Source: Ewingella sp. CoE-038-23
GTDB taxonomy: Bacteria > Pseudomonadota > Gammaproteobacteria > Enterobacterales > Enterobacteriaceae
Direction: 5' to 3'
NCBI RefSeq assembly: GCF_040419245.1
Contig: NZ_JAZHOH010000001.1
Span: forward strand, 1,612,001-1,676,000
Length of the DNA: 64,000 nucleotides
Numbering within the stretch: position 1 is the first letter of the stretch; each line of letters begins with the position of its first letter. The notes below the pieces were generated by a model, which was not told the DNA's origin, searched no databases, and saw nothing but the letters and a program-made list of their open reading frames with translations. The position numbers and the translations under genes were made by a program. This document shows, in pieces, positions 2,220 to 59,453 of this stretch.

Positions 2220-3787
2220 TTCGCTGCTTCCTCAGACGTGGTCTGGACGCGTACATCGGTGGTTTCGGCCGGGCCGAAAACGGTGTAGGTCGGGAGTTTC
2301 ACATTCTGATACGGCTCCCAGCCGCCGCCAAGGGCTTTATATAAAGAGACTAAGTCGGTACTGGTCTGCACGCGCGCGGCGGCAGACTGCTGCTTAGCCT
2401 GCGCCAGTTGGCGTTGGGCGTCGAGCACGTTGATGAAGGAGGATAGCCCTTTGCTGTAGCTGTCGGTCGCCAGTTCGAATGAGGTTTGCAGCGCCTCGGT
2501 GGTTTGATCCAGCCCGGTGACCCGGTCCTGATCGGTGCGATAGTTGACCAGCGCGTTGTCGACATCTTGCAGCGCGGTGAGCACCGTCTGGCGATAGTTC
2601 AGCGCGGCGTTAGCCTGCTGCGCACGCGACAAGTGCACACTGGAAACCAGACGGCCGCCCTGGAAAATAGGCAGGGTGACGGACGGGCCGAAGGAGTAGA
2701 AGTTGCTACTCCAGTTGTCCAGATAGCTGGCGTCGCTGTTACGCATGCCGAACTGGCCGGTCAGGGAGATGCTTGGGAACATCTGGGCGACGGACACGCC
2801 GATGTTGGCCGTCGCGGCGTGCAGGTCGGCCTCGGCTTTACGCACGTCCGGGCGGCGACGCGCCAGCTGTGACGGCACGCCCACCGGCACGGCGGCGGGC
2901 AGGGCGGGCATAGGTTTCACATTGGTCAGCTCGCCGTCGAGGGTGCCCGGCGCCTGTCCAAGCAGCACAGCCAGCCCGTTCATCGCCTGACGCTCCTGTG
3001 CCTGATATTGCGGCAGCTGGGCGCGCAGCGAGCCAAGTTGGGCGCGGGCGTTTTCCACATCCAGCTGTGGCGCAAGGCCGTTCTTCTGCTGGCTCTGGGT
3101 CAGTTCTAAGGTTTGCTGGGCGACGTCTATCTGGGTTTGAATCGCCGCCGTGATGCTCTGCGCGCCGCGCAGCTGTAGGTAGGCGCGAGCCACTTCGGCT
3201 TGCAGAGAGACTAATGCGTCATTGCGCTGCTCGATAGAAGACTGTTTCTGCGCATTGGCGGCTTCCACCTGCCGACGGGTGCCGCCGAACAAGTCCAGCT
3301 CCCAACTGGCATCAAAGCTGCCTTGGTATAGGTTCACTGGGCCGGTAGCGGCGTCGATGGCGCTGGACGCCTCAGGGCTGAGATTCTGCGCCTGATCGGC
3401 AAGTCCAGAAGACTCGAGCTCACCCTTCAACCCAAGCTGCTGGCGAGTAAATTTGGTGTTGGCCTGCACCGACGGCATCCACGCGCCGCGCGCCTGCGTC
3501 ACCTGCTCGCGGGCGCCGGCGATGCGCAGCACCGCCTGCTGGAGGGAAATATTCCCGGCAATGGCGCGGTCAATCAGGCTATCAAGCTGCGGATCTTTGA
3601 AGGCTTTCCACCACACCGGATTTGGCTCCGAAGGCAAGGCGATAGAGGCTCCCTCTTTGGCCTGCGGGCGGCTCATGTCGTTGTAAGCCGCAGGGGTTTT
3701 AGGCTTAGGCTGCTGGTAGTCCGGCCCGACAGAACAGCCAGTCAGAGCCAAAGCCAGCGCGGAAAGCGTAAATGTCAGAGTTTTCAT
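2216..3787 (-). CDS. NodT/TolC-type outer-membrane efflux lipoprotein
   Basis: 523 residues. The N-terminus is a lipoprotein signal with lipobox LTGC (mature Cys near residue 18), so the protein is expected to be acylated and anchored in the outer membrane. Two repeats of the outer-membrane efflux fold follow, with typical phrases such as ASWELDLFG and RRPDVRKAEADLHAATA. Such proteins form trimeric beta-barrel and alpha-helical tunnels that complete tripartite pumps. It starts 5 bp after the DHA2 pump gene and overlaps corA, so it is the third gene of a four-gene operon. A GGAG lies 12 nt before the ATG. The substrate is unknown. Confidence 0.92.
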   Translation of the reverse strand: MKTLTFTLSALALALTGCSVGPDYQQPKPKTPAAYNDMSRPQAKEGASIALPSEPNPVWWKAFKDPQLDSLIDRAIAGNISLQQAVLRIAGAREQVTQARGAWMPSVQANTKFTRQQLGLKGELESSGLADQAQNLSPEASSAIDAATGPVNLYQGSFDASWELDLFGGTRRQVEAANAQKQSSIEQRNDALVSLQAEVARAYLQLRGAQSITAAIQTQIDVAQQTLELTQSQQKNGLAPQLDVENARAQLGSLRAQLPQYQAQERQAMNGLAVLLGQAPGTLDGELTNVKPMPALPAAVPVGVPSQLARRRPDVRKAEADLHAATANIGVSVAQMFPSISLTGQFGMRNSDASYLDNWSSNFYSFGPSVTLPIFQGGRLVSSVHLSRAQQANAALNYRQTVLTALQDVDNALVNYRTDQDRVTGLDQTTEALQTSFELATDSYSKGLSSFINVLDAQRQLAQAKQQSAAARVQTSTDLVSLYKALGGGWEPYQNVKLPTYTVFGPAETTDVRVQTTSEEAAK

Positions 3788-3792
3788 TTTTA

Positions 3793-5361
3793 TCAGTGTG
3801 CTCCGGCATTGCCTTCGCTCTTAACTGGCGAAAGCAGAAAACAGAAGGGGATCAAAATAGCGGCAACAATGGCGCAATAGCTGAACACGTCGATGTAAGC
3901 CAGAATGCGCGACTGGGAAATCATCTCCTGATACATGCGCGCGCTGGCGAGCTGCATCGGGTCGCCAACCACGTGAGCGAAGTCGCGAATGGCGGCGGCA
4001 CTGCGGCTCACGGCCTGATTGAACTGCTCATTCAGCGGCGTCATGTTATGCACCATATGGGCGCTGTGCGCCTGAGTTCGCTCGGTCACGCCCGCGGTCG
4101 CCAGTGAAATACCAATCGACCCTGCCACGTTACGGAACATGGTGAACAGCGCCGAGGCGTCGGCGTTCAGGCGCTGCGGTATGGTCACAAAGGCGATGGT
4201 GGTCAGCGGCACAAACAGGAAACCGAGGCCGAGAGACTGGGCGCTGCGGTACATCACCAGCGTTTCGAAATCGACGTTTGGCGTCAGGCTGCCGGAATAG
4301 AGGAAGGAAGCTCCCAGCAGGAAGAAGCCAAAGGCGATGATGTAGCGCGTCTGCACAATCGGCATCAGCTTCAGTACCAGCGGGATCGACAGTACAATCA
4401 GAATCGCCCCCGGCGACATCACCAGCCCGGATAAGGTCGCGGTATAGCCCAACTGCTGCTGGGCCAGCTGAGGAATCACCACCGAGCTGCCATAAAGAAT
4501 CATCGCCATCCCGGCCATCAGCAGGCTGGAGACGGCAAAGTTGCGATCTTTCAGGCAGCGCAGGTTAACCACCGGCTTCTTGGCGTAGAGCAGCCAGTAG
4601 ATTGCGCCGACAATGCCAATTGCCGCCAGAACCGCAAAGGTGACGATAAAGGCCGAGTTGAACCAGTTGTCGTCCTCGCCTCGGTCCATCATTACCTGCA
4701 AACAGCCCAGCCCAAGGGCAATCAGCCCGATACCGATATAGTCGATACTCAACTTGCCTTTGGCTTTGCGCTCCCACGGCGGGTCTTCCAACAGCTGGTA
4801 AATAGCCAGCAGGGCGATGATCCCCACCGGAATGTTGATGAAGAAAATCCAGCGCCAGCTGACGTTATCGGTGATATAGCCACCTAGCGTTGGGCCGACT
4901 ACCGGGGCCACGATAATGGCGATGGATGACAGGCCAAAAGCTTTGCCGCGATCTTTCGGCGCGAAGTAGTCGAGCAGCACGGATTGCTGAATCGGCTGGA
5001 GGCCGCCGCCAAAGAAGCCCTGCAAAATGCGGAACAGGATCATCTGCCACAGCTCGGTGGCGATGCCGCACAGGAAGGAGCAGACGGTGAACATCGCGAT
5101 ACAGATCAGGAAATAGTTTTTGCGCCCCAACACCCGGCTAAGGAACGCCGAGATTGGCAGCACGATGCCGTTCGCCACCAGATACGAGGTGAGCACCCAG
5201 GTGGACTCGTCGTAACTGGAGGAGAGGGAGCCGGCGACGTGGGGCAGTGCCACGTTGACAATCGTGGTGTCCAGAATTTCCATGAACACCGCGATGGTCA
5301 CGACGGCGGCAACCGCCCACGGGTTACTGGAGGGTCTCCAGCCGCTGCGATCGTCACTCAT
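3793..5361 (-). CDS. DHA2-family MFS drug efflux pump (EmrB type)
   Basis: 522 residues with about 14 hydrophobic segments. The first segment contains LDTTIVNVALP, the motif D1 of the 14-helix drug:H+ antiporters, and motif C occurs as GPTLGGYI near residue 150 (WRWIFFINIPVG follows). The protein would export hydrophobic compounds using the proton gradient, working with the fusion protein encoded just upstream and the outer-membrane lipoprotein downstream. Its start overlaps the stop of the upstream gene by 4 bp (5358-5361). EmrB is the closest familiar model, but the pump is a paralogue and the substrate cannot be read from the sequence. Confidence 0.92.
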   Translation of the reverse strand: MSDDRSGWRPSSNPWAVAAVVTIAVFMEILDTTIVNVALPHVAGSLSSSYDESTWVLTSYLVANGIVLPISAFLSRVLGRKNYFLICIAMFTVCSFLCGIATELWQMILFRILQGFFGGGLQPIQQSVLLDYFAPKDRGKAFGLSSIAIIVAPVVGPTLGGYITDNVSWRWIFFINIPVGIIALLAIYQLLEDPPWERKAKGKLSIDYIGIGLIALGLGCLQVMMDRGEDDNWFNSAFIVTFAVLAAIGIVGAIYWLLYAKKPVVNLRCLKDRNFAVSSLLMAGMAMILYGSSVVIPQLAQQQLGYTATLSGLVMSPGAILIVLSIPLVLKLMPIVQTRYIIAFGFFLLGASFLYSGSLTPNVDFETLVMYRSAQSLGLGFLFVPLTTIAFVTIPQRLNADASALFTMFRNVAGSIGISLATAGVTERTQAHSAHMVHNMTPLNEQFNQAVSRSAAAIRDFAHVVGDPMQLASARMYQEMISQSRILAYIDVFSYCAIVAAILIPFCFLLSPVKSEGNAGAH

Positions 5362-10748: not shown

Positions 10749-11069
10749 TTATTTGGCTTTTTTCCGATTTTTGACAATCAGCGTGCCATCGGGGTGGAAA
10801 TAGCGCGTTGGCCAAATTTCAGCTGGCGTCATACCCAGCGCATTGGCGATCAGCATCTCTCCCCGAGGCCAGCGGCGGCAAAGCGCGTTTGACAGGGTTG
10901 AAGAGCAGAGGCCGGATTGGCGGGATAGGGCAGCCAGAGTAGTCCCTCGTTTGTGCAGCTCGGCAATGATATCTGCCGGATGCCAATTCTGAAAACGATG
11001 GGAACCCGCTGTTACCTGAGATGTATTGCGAGGTGGAGCGATATCTTGAGTTTTTTTATTGGTCGTCAT
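10749..11069 (-). CDS. sfsB: SfsB/Nlp (Ner-like) DNA-binding regulator
   Basis: 106 residues. The core FQNWHPADIIAELHKRGTT followed by LAALSRQSGLCSSTLSNAL and WPRGEMLIANALGMTPAEIWPTRY is the helix-turn-helix fold of the phage Mu Ner family, to which E. coli SfsB (Nlp) belongs. Such proteins bind DNA as repressors or activators; E. coli SfsB was linked to sugar fermentation. The N-terminal ~25 residues are an extra polar extension. The ribosome site is weak (GGAT). It lies upstream of the bd-oxidase operon on the same strand, but a terminator separates them, so regulation of the oxidase is only a possibility. Confidence 0.85.
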   Translation of the reverse strand: MTTNKKTQDIAPPRNTSQVTAGSHRFQNWHPADIIAELHKRGTTLAALSRQSGLCSSTLSNALCRRWPRGEMLIANALGMTPAEIWPTRYFHPDGTLIVKNRKKAK

Positions 11070-11103
11070 TTCGCATGATCCGTTGCAAAGTGATGATTAC
11101 TAA

Positions 11104-11338
11104 CACCCTAAGAGGTGCAAATCCCTTGGGTGATAGCCCAGACGGAGTTTGCACTACCGGCCACAACGGATCACCGGCCAGCCCGAAGGCTGCCCCGCCT
11201 GAGCCACCATAGAGACATTATTTATTACGTGAACGAGTAATAAGCAATAGGTGTGCAAAGGCTGACGTATAAATATTATATATACGTCAACGTTGTGATA
11301 TTCAGGGTGCAAATCCCGGCTGCGGATTTTGCCGCAGC
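11104..11338 (+). ncRNA. Structured RNA element, copy 1 (C4-antisense-like); strand inferred
   Basis: About 235 nt in a non-coding gap, related over its whole length to 59007-59239. Visible pairings: CACCC (11104-11108) with GGGTG (11128-11132); the same GGTG with CACC at 11205-11208 as an alternative; CAGCC-CGAA-GGCTG (11179-11192); TTATTAC with GTAATAA and TGACGTATA with TATACGTCA in the middle; GCTGCGG (11319-11325) with CCGCAGC (11332-11338). The 11-mer GTGCAAATCCC occurs twice (11115-11125 and 11307-11317), and the element GGAGTTTGCAC (11144-11154) is complementary to both. Copy 2 keeps each pairing with different bases. The layout recalls the C4 antisense RNAs of P1-like phages; that family assignment is tentative. 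Confidence 0.55.
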
Positions 11339-11484
11339 GCAAGAACTATACTCTAATCACTTAGTTGATACCAAGTGAGAAAGGGGCGTTTCATTTAGTT
11401 ATCTAAGTAAAAATTCAAAACTCAATAGAATAGTCGTCTAAAAGAGGGGGAGGTCTGCCAAACGAGATTCTTCATACTTCAAGG

Positions 11485-58384: not shown

Positions 58385-58414
58385 CTATTGCCAAGTTTAG
58401 CAGGAGTCTGTCCT

Positions 58415-58996
58415 ATGCCACGGGTATCTAAAGCCGAAACCGAGCGCAACCGCGCCCTGATCGAGGAAGTCTCCTCAAAGCTGTTTCGCGAGCAGGGGCT
58501 GAAAGTCAGCGTTGCCGACGTGATGTCCGCCGCCGGGCTGACCCACGGCGGCTTTTACGGCCATTTCAAATCCAAAGATGAGCTGATCGCCATTGCCTGT
58601 GCCAACGCTTTCGACACGGCGGTACACAACTGGCAAGAAGAAGCGGCGTCCGGCGAGACGTTAGCCGAAAAACAAAAAGCGCTGGTGGAGCACTATCTCT
58701 CATCTTCCAATATCAAGAACATGGGCGACGGCTGCCCGCTGGCTTCGCTGGCGAGCGACGTGGCGCGGGAAGATGAAGATAAGCCGGTGCGCGAGGCGTT
58801 TCATCAGGGCACTGAGAAGCTAGTGGAGATCTTTGCCGCCGGGGAGAGCAACCACGCGAAGGCGCTGGCGGCGGTATCGACCATGGTCGGCGCGCTGATC
58901 CTGGCCCGTGCTAACAGCGGCTACTCGGTGGCGGATGATTTTATCTCGGTGGCGAAAGCGCAGCTGTTGGCGGAGATTAAAAACGCCGAGTCCTAA
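58415..58996 (+). CDS. TetR/AcrR-family regulator (divergent from the tautomerase)
   Basis: 193 residues from the ATG at 58415 (GGAG 10 nt upstream). The helix-turn-helix ends AAGLTHGGFYGHFKSKDELIA, the same subgroup as the regulator at 18814. The ligand domain contains a GDGCPLASLASDVAR loop comparable to GCPVAVL in that protein. Likely represses itself and the tautomerase through the palindrome at 58371. The stop codon is 10 bp before the second structured RNA element. Confidence 0.88.
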   Translation: MPRVSKAETERNRALIEEVSSKLFREQGLKVSVADVMSAAGLTHGGFYGHFKSKDELIAIACANAFDTAVHNWQEEAASGETLAEKQKALVEHYLSSSNIKNMGDGCPLASLASDVAREDEDKPVREAFHQGTEKLVEIFAAGESNHAKALAAVSTMVGALILARANSGYSVADDFISVAKAQLLAEIKNAES

Positions 58997-59006
58997 AATT
59001 TAGCTG

Positions 59007-59239
59007 CCACCTAAGCTGCGAAAGTTTTGGTGGTAGCCCAGACAGGGTTCGCAGTACCGGCCTACAAGGATACCGGCCAACCCGAAGGTTGCCCTGCCTG
59101 AGCCACCATAGATATTGTCGCAACATGGCGTGTTGCGAGAACAATAGGCGAACAAAAGCATTAACACTCAGTGTTATACCACTAAGTGATCCTCATAAGT
59201 TAACCGGGCTGCGAAACCCGACTGCGGATTTTGCCGCAG
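59007..59239 (+). ncRNA. Structured RNA element, copy 2 (C4-antisense-like); strand inferred
   Basis: 233 nt, aligned end to end with 11104-11338. CCACC (59007-59011) pairs with GGTGG (59029-59033), which can instead pair with CCACC at 59103-59107. CTGCGAA occurs at 59016-59022 and 59209-59215, and AGGGTTCGCAG (59044-59054) is complementary to both. Further: CAGGG (59043-59047) with CCCTG (59092-59096), CAACC-CGAA-GGTTG, CGCAAC with GTTGCG near 59119-59137, CGGG with CCCG around the second repeat, and CTGCGG (59222-59227) with CCGCAG (59234-59239). Most stems differ in sequence from copy 1 but stay paired, evidence for conserved RNA structure. No clear U-tract terminator follows. Confidence 0.55.
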
Positions 59240-59453
59240 CAAGGCAACTATAGTTAAGTCAGAAGCCTTAACCAAGCGGCTAAATTCTATTCTGCGGCAC
59301 ACTTTCCAAGAAAATTGTCTATATTGCAAAGGGTTACATTGAGCGGATGAATAATTAGGGCGGCGAGCCTCTACCCGTGGGGGATTATTGCCTGCGCCAG
59401 CCGCGAGTCTGCTACTCTTTGGCCATTACTTACGCGCCCTCAAAGGACGATTT
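59240..59453. other. Spacer between structured RNA copy 2 and the pyrophosphatase gene
   Basis: 214 bp. It should hold the promoter of the pyrophosphatase gene; no clear -35/-10 pair or operator is recognised. No ORF with a ribosome site. Confidence 0.4.

Follow-up and report, generated by a model that had tools for sequence, protein, structure and literature searches.

Two distant elements in the 64,000-nucleotide stretch of Ewingella DNA analysed here (the window) are very probably C4-type antisense RNA switches. Copy 1 would silence the gene next to it, which encodes a Ner/SfsB-like DNA-binding protein, and copy 2 would have lost its gene. Copy 1 is most likely a phage-immunity switch that was retained as a control of a chromosomal gene. 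The elements lie at 11104..11338 (copy 1) and 59007-59239 (copy 2), where a preliminary description had placed them, and they align from end to end as it had reported. That description had left open which gene they regulate; the adjoining ner-like gene is the likely answer for copy 1, and the gene of copy 2 is seemingly lost.

Identity and fold of the two elements

Both elements match the Rfam covariance model of C4 antisense RNA (RF01695, cut-off 45), copy 1 with 75.8 bits (E 5e-13 over the window) and copy 2 with 84.7 bits (E 3.1e-15 over the window), so that the likeness to phage C4 antisense RNA noticed earlier is real for both. According to this match and to the fold, the RNA strand is the minus strand in both copies. 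Minus-strand folds reach -46.8 kcal/mol (z -3.5) for copy 1 and -46.2 kcal/mol (z -4.8) for copy 2, and the plus-strand folds are unremarkable (z -1.0 and -1.8, respectively). In both copies the C4 fold leaves the specificity word unpaired and the second loop mostly or wholly unpaired. A GGT stands at the 5' side of the first C4 helix, like the published RNase P processing site. Processing by RNase P to about 77 nt is a feature of the C4 family (RF01695), and it is predicted for the window copies.

Further information about the structure was obtained from an alignment of 30 C4 sequences (29 distinct rows), made of the two window copies and 28 others that we selected. Standard pairs occupy 99.0% of its cells and 13 of the 27 pairs show changes on both sides, compared with 0 to 4 in slid structures. 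On four of five measures none of 500 shuffles reaches the real value; the number of further pair types is not above that of the shuffles, 77 of 500 being as high. Among the paired changes between the copies that the preliminary description pointed out, GTGCAAA/TTTGCAC belongs to the pairing of antisense RNA and target and not to a helix within the RNA. Its account of one word near both ends and a complementary word in the middle holds, the word being GTGCAAA in copy 1 and CTGCGAA in copy 2 (plus strand). Covariation, whose absence from further copies was to count against the RNA, is present in them, both in the 13 pairs and in the pairing of each C4 with its own targets described below.

The leader upstream of the window C4s resembles IsrK of Gifsy-1 (RF01394) at 48 bits (48.1 in copy 1, 48.4 in copy 2); since both copies lie under the cut-off of 50, membership in isrK was rejected and is not claimed. 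A transposon-end reading was dropped because the sequence shared by 11 aligned C4-ner units runs mostly from the promoter through ner, without common ends. A purely coding reading was dropped because of the fold and pairing tests.

The C4 RNAs of P1 and P7 (RF01695, RF03163) likewise have a three-helix fold, an a' word, a b' loop, and upstream and downstream targets. The genes after C4 in P1 are icd-ant. P1 and N15 have an operon of the icd-ant type downstream, whereas copy 1 has a ner-like gene and copy 2 no gene; such an operon is a feature of the phage systems and not of the C4 RNA family. Unlike in P1/P7, the copy 1 unit sits among ordinary chromosomal genes, its neighbours in the window being those of a bd oxidase, a LysR protein and alkaline phosphatase. 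Satellite P4, whose CI RNA has seqA/seqC targets, shares 82.4% identity at its cI DNA with the C4 part of copy 1, and the C4 profile also finds P4 cI. In P4 a replication operon is under CI; there is no such operon at the window copies. The C4 part of copy 2 shows 81-82% identity to the C4-type immunity region of N15 and phiKO2. These are phage records with different downstream genes. In N15 an anti-repressor gene lies downstream of the C4-type region. The window also contains an RtT RNA (RF00391, 55.8 bits) at 634-721 on the minus strand.

The two units in the window

Copy 1 has the following features:

11345..11374, minus strand: promoter-like TTGGTA-18-TATAGT, from a consensus scan
11299..11351, minus strand: a1b1 target with leading hairpin (RF03163 43.0 bits, under the cut-off of 46.7)
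11307-11313 and 11291-11297, minus strand: a1 word and b1, complementary over 7 nt to the C4 word and over 7 nt to the loop
11126..11214, minus strand: C4 antisense RNA of copy 1 (RF01695 75.8 bits; fold)
11147-11154 and 11161-11172, minus strand: specificity word a' and second loop b'
11076..11121, minus strand: downstream target, with the a2 word at 11115-11121 and the b2/start region at 11076-11085
10749..11069, minus strand: Ner/SfsB-like DNA-binding protein, 106 aa (PF13693 113.4 bits, cut-off 25)

Transcription would probably start near 11338. The promoter hexamers are largely common to the 11 aligned C4-ner units, four of which are the copy 1 locus in different genomes. Outside the stretch from promoter to ner, the sequence of these units is mostly unrelated, and the copy 1 orthologues among them share flanks. 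Immediately before the promoter, five units (L010, L018, L019, L023 and L024) also have a short common sequence that may be an operator. The exact complements of copy 1 measure 7 nt at a1, 7 nt at a2, 7 nt at b1 and 10 nt at b2, with duplex energies of -10.7 kcal/mol for the word on a2 and -17.7 kcal/mol for the loop on the start region. A six-codon leader frame starts at 11076, in the b2 region, and the ner ATG lies inside it; the Shine-Dalgarno sequence of this start region, as read by eye, is weak. A short leader frame likewise precedes the main gene in isrK/orf45/anrP, as described in PMC4825925.

The mechanism that we propose for copy 1 is well supported at the level of sequence. A promoter would drive a leader RNA carrying a1b1, the C4 RNA and a2b2, the last at the start region of the next gene. 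C4 would be released from this leader RNA and pair through a' with a2 and through the b' loop with the ribosome-binding region, leaving the downstream gene untranslated; pairing with a1b1 may also end transcription early. The gene silenced in this way at copy 1 would be that of the Ner/SfsB-like protein. Silencing by C4 is as reported elsewhere (PMC5320573, PMC4825925): in P1/P7, b' covers the ribosome-binding site and a' gives specificity (PMC5320573), and CI of P4 keeps the replication genes off by ending transcription (PMC4825925). The IsrK system differs in that its upstream leader RNA is an activator (PMC4825925).

The ner-like gene starts 34 nt past the copy 1 element, on the same strand as C4. 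The strand and this gene were overlooked in the preliminary description, and its statement that no phage gene is near is false for copy 1, where a Ner-like repressor gene comes next. The protein matches phrog_769 (transcriptional repressor), and its HTH_35 domain (PF13693) is that of phage Mu Ner and of SfsB/Nlp. The SfsB equivalog model NF007670 gives 100.3 bits, under its cut-off of 150; the protein is a relative of SfsB. One other HTH_35 match is found in the same genome (G000:C1:149792-150016). Matches in the phage collection all fall short of 80% coverage of the protein; the best are to short records without annotation and to an entry annotated sfsB in a Salmonella record. Among annotated phages, identity over the domain is 50% for Ner of Mu and 61% for Ner of D108 and SfMu. 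A scan of 10 proteins from the surroundings of the two copies gave no match to a structural phage protein family.

The whole copy 1 unit, about 0.65 kb, is kept in the chromosome of the genus. It is present in 6/6 genus genomes, as judged from the C4 search and common flanks; four orthologues have the alkaline phosphatase gene upstream and four have a cytochrome bd oxidase gene downstream, with L008 and L012 belonging to both sets. Its C4 is identical at 84-88 of 88 positions across the genus, and ner is an open frame in all six genomes. The Ner domain shows dS from 0.31 to beyond 2.5 and dN/dS of 0.076-0.212 (14 of 15 pairs, the 15th being not computable); the gene is under purifying selection in the genus. 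Among public sequences, the locus has its nearest relative in Ewingella americana (L028), where the ner-like protein is 87% identical. At 80% or more, the whole unit occurs in 0 of 5426 E. coli genomes.

Copy 2 lacks part of this layout:

59247..59275, minus strand: promoter-like TTGGTT-17-TATAGT, read by comparison with the aligned units; the consensus scan does not report it
59201..59253, minus strand: a1b1 target (RF03163 55.5 bits, cut-off 46.7), with the a1 word at 59209-59216
59026..59113, minus strand: C4 antisense RNA of copy 2, an orphan (RF01695 84.7 bits)
59047-59054 and 59061-59072, minus strand: a' and b' loop
59016-59023 (within 59007..59023), minus strand: remaining a2 target, a 7-nt word match
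59007-59012, minus strand: AGGTGG after a2, with no b2 beyond
58388-58996, plus strand: convergent TetR gene, its end adjoining the a2 side

The exact complements are 7 nt at a1, 7 nt at a2, 5 nt at b1 and 4 nt at b2, and no frame of 60 aa or more is found on the same strand within 1.5 kb downstream. Copy 2 would descend from a unit like copy 1, with its gene deleted; it may still make C4 RNA, which would then act in trans only. At the same locus of another genome of the genus (G001), promoter and a1b1 are followed by a short leader frame and a ner gene, and then by a 5'-damaged C4. This ner gene has no C4 of its own between a1b1 and the gene, and we infer that the locus lost the C4 between a1 and a2, which are direct repeats. 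The targets of a C4-ner unit in another genus (L042) are complementary to the copy 2 C4 over 7 and 9 nt, with -10.5 and -14.0 kcal/mol, which suggests that copy 2 was once a ner unit itself.

Judged by exact complements, neither window copy fits the other, each C4 reaching only 4-5 nt on the other's targets. By duplex energy alone the word is less specific. The copy 1 word on the copy 2 target gives -6.1 kcal/mol and does not fit, but the copy 2 word on a2 of copy 1 gives -10.4 kcal/mol, as good as on its own site (-10.5). The copy 2 loop pairs more weakly with the copy 1 start region (-8.6 kcal/mol, versus -17.7 for the copy 1 loop). Given the word energy, some action of copy 2 on the ner gene of copy 1 is possible in spite of this weaker loop pairing.

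Pairing, partner genes and islands

Each C4 fits its own targets better than those of other loci. The comparison covers 160 C4 units: 27 genus loci, 131 units from 149 family genomes (among the matches listed), and the public loci L028 and L029. About a dozen listed family C4 matches stand outside this set, at least three of them (G017:C92, G017:C77 and G142:C2:138012) with an adjoining HTH_35 match. The word was readable in 148 units (59 distinct words) and the loop in 142 (108 distinct loops), the other 12 and 18 having no CCGG anchor. On average, the word matches its own a2 over 7.05 nt and the a2 of other loci over 4.27 nt, and 58 of the 59 distinct words fit their own downstream target better than others; on the upstream region the values are 7.04 and 4.93 nt. 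For the loop they are 7.88 nt on the own start region against 4.38 nt on others, with 102 of 108 distinct loops fitting their own better, and 7.26 against 4.81 nt upstream. In a control stretch 300 nt further downstream, own and other loci give 3.9-4.1 nt alike. Both pairings reach at least 7 nt in 113 of 142 own pairs and in 131 of 20022 cross pairs. Mean duplex energies, own and others, are -10.1 and -7.1 kcal/mol for the word and -13.0 and -6.9 kcal/mol for the loop. Since the C4 loci are related to each other, permutation figures for the pairing are not to be taken as probabilities. The pairing is not universal, because among the 31 units of the ner class 6 have a loop match and 3 a word match shorter than 7 nt.

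A Ner-like gene on the same strand ends within 750 nt after C4 in 31 of the 160 units; these are 13 of the 27 genus units, 17 of the 131 family units and L028. Six of the 31, together with L028, represent the copy 1 locus, and these cases are therefore not independent. Most genomes have 1 to 5 HTH_35 matches, and the highest number is 15; from this we calculate that chance would produce well under one C4-ner case. Other genes take the same place. A Rha-type cluster follows C4 in 22 units (PF09669 in the representative scanned), and a family of 104-123 aa in 8, one member of which was scanned and has no Pfam or NCBIfam name. A SymE-like cluster follows in four units (L054, L122, L131 and L144) from genomes G008 and G147, and C4 pairs with its own targets in all four. 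The one SymE-like protein scanned has 66.7 bits with PF08845 and 57.6 with the SymE equivalog, under its cut-off of 132. Elsewhere SymE is associated with another antisense RNA. The class 'P4cI/153aa-type' (73 units) is a mixture produced by overlapping reading frames, and no claims are drawn from it. Two further C4 units lie in the same genome as the window (L003, G000:C1:387319-387408, and L004, G000:C1:1504072-1504156), followed by proteins of 106 and 78 aa without a Pfam or NCBIfam match. In L170 two C4 units (2994-3077 and 5002-5084), with a near-identical small protein, lie 2 kb apart, a possible tandem duplication. CRISPR-like arrays with 60-nt spacing stand beside C4-ner units in L022 (1795-3088) and L142 (600-2700); frames in L015, from the same genome as L022, contain the identical CRISPR-like repeat.

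In E. coli PE164, C4 (L433:3395-3479), a 153-aa protein of unknown function and a ner-like gene form an apparent operon, at least 80% of which occurs in 35 of 5426 E. coli genomes. Seven island loci were read (L433-L439: PE164, LF82, EC28, MS20657, JNEC-KY175, N3 and EA2). The operon match covers the C4 stretch in six of them, and in EA2 only the ner part. An 'integrase domain-containing protein' is encoded downstream in six of the seven; five of these six also have a tyrosine recombinase within the stretch shown, that of LF82 being broken, and a tRNA-Asn gene is visible in four. In N3 (L438) the ner-like gene is broken and the integrase, at tRNA-Thr, is partial. The upstream cargo varies: Avs3a, NACHT with LA2681 HEPN, type I restriction, a DEAD helicase, or large unknown proteins. 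The annotation of these islands reads 'hypothetical protein' and 'helix-turn-helix domain-containing protein', and the C4 RNA is unannotated. In the family genomes, at least 12 of 34 matches to PF12835 (Integrase_1) with 140 bits or more lie within 3 kb of a listed C4; the genome of the window has no PF12835 match.

Of 63 candidate nearest neighbours of the ner, SymE and small-family units, L001 and L029, 57 were run through PADLOC, the other six being five from the copy 1 locus elsewhere and a CRISPR frame. The 57 gave matches to 119 families, REase_I with three members. The baseline set, 47 of the window's 49 larger frames, gave matches to 3 families with one member each. Among neighbours scanned singly, and partly picked as defence-like, 8 of 20 match at 1e-10, one of them doubtful (TAP-like). 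The comparison of C4 neighbours with the window baseline, uncontrolled for island content, is a lead only.

Alternative readings and meaning

Both elements could be dead remnants of a decayed immunity region of a phage, satellite or island, functionless now. We think this improbable for the two together, and it is the most likely single reading for copy 2, which lacks a gene and a start-region target. Other units of the genus have decayed as well: L017 is 5'-damaged, the downstream region of L020 no longer matches the word, and L027 has 36.8 bits. Against it stands copy 1, whose C4 is near invariant while ner, still open throughout the genus, has taken many synonymous changes at low dN/dS. It also seems unlikely that the C4 RNAs, and orphan copy 2 in particular, owe their retention to silencing in trans of incoming phages, satellites or islands with matching target words. 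The same idea has been put forward for the C4-like RNAs of Acinetobacter, suggested to act on incoming phages or host RNAs, and C4 of P1/P7 acts against superinfection (both PMC5320573). The fit of the copy 2 C4 to ner-unit targets in another genus is in line with such a role, as is the presence of the copy 1 word in C4s before Rha-type phage genes (3 of 13 loci with the word). However, matches at both sites between loci are as rare as the cross pairs above indicate. Scans of viral contigs for both double targets returned at least 240 loci, and the C4 profile (E 0.01) matched none of those listed, so these matches look like chance and say little. In the genus, the double target of copy 2 occurs in 0 of 6 genomes, and that of copy 1 occurs in its own unit in all six and in six other places outside C4 matches, which look like chance matches.

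We consider it very improbable that the elements are riboswitch-like or repeat-driven cis elements and involve no antisense action of one RNA molecule on another. Segments of a single leader transcript could compete with each other, as is described for isrK (PMC4825925). In the fold, however, the word is free, as is the loop for the most part or entirely, and across loci word and loop change together with the target sites on either side. An antisense switch controlling the ner-like gene of copy 1 remains our preferred reading.

C4-like RNAs in a chromosome are already published: Acinetobacter baumannii Group 1 sRNAs are many in one chromosome, expressed and apparently processed, but the passages of PMC5320573 that concern them name no controlled gene, whereas the present analysis proposes a partner gene together with the two target sites. 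C4 is listed in Proteobacteria and phages (PMC2864571), and C4 with Ner is a variant setting of a known kind. Our searches of the open-licence literature turned up no paper connecting C4 with Ner, SymE or the islands described above.

The established role of C4 is that of a phage immunity RNA; in the present loci it stands, with its own specificity words, before a Ner-like regulator in bacterial chromosomes and in islands that carry defence systems. Tentatively, and at rather less than even confidence, we propose that C4 with Ner is a general switch module that left the phages: in enterobacteria it would control integrase islands with interchangeable anti-phage systems, and free copies would now sit in host chromosomes, serving as regulators or as a store of immunity RNAs, with many specificities that are silent towards one another. 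These specificities would be set by two short stretches, with 59 words and 108 loops in the loci read. Two words and their targets make up a simple and testable rule for predicting the gene that a given C4 silences, and they may offer a candidate answer to how defence islands stay silent.
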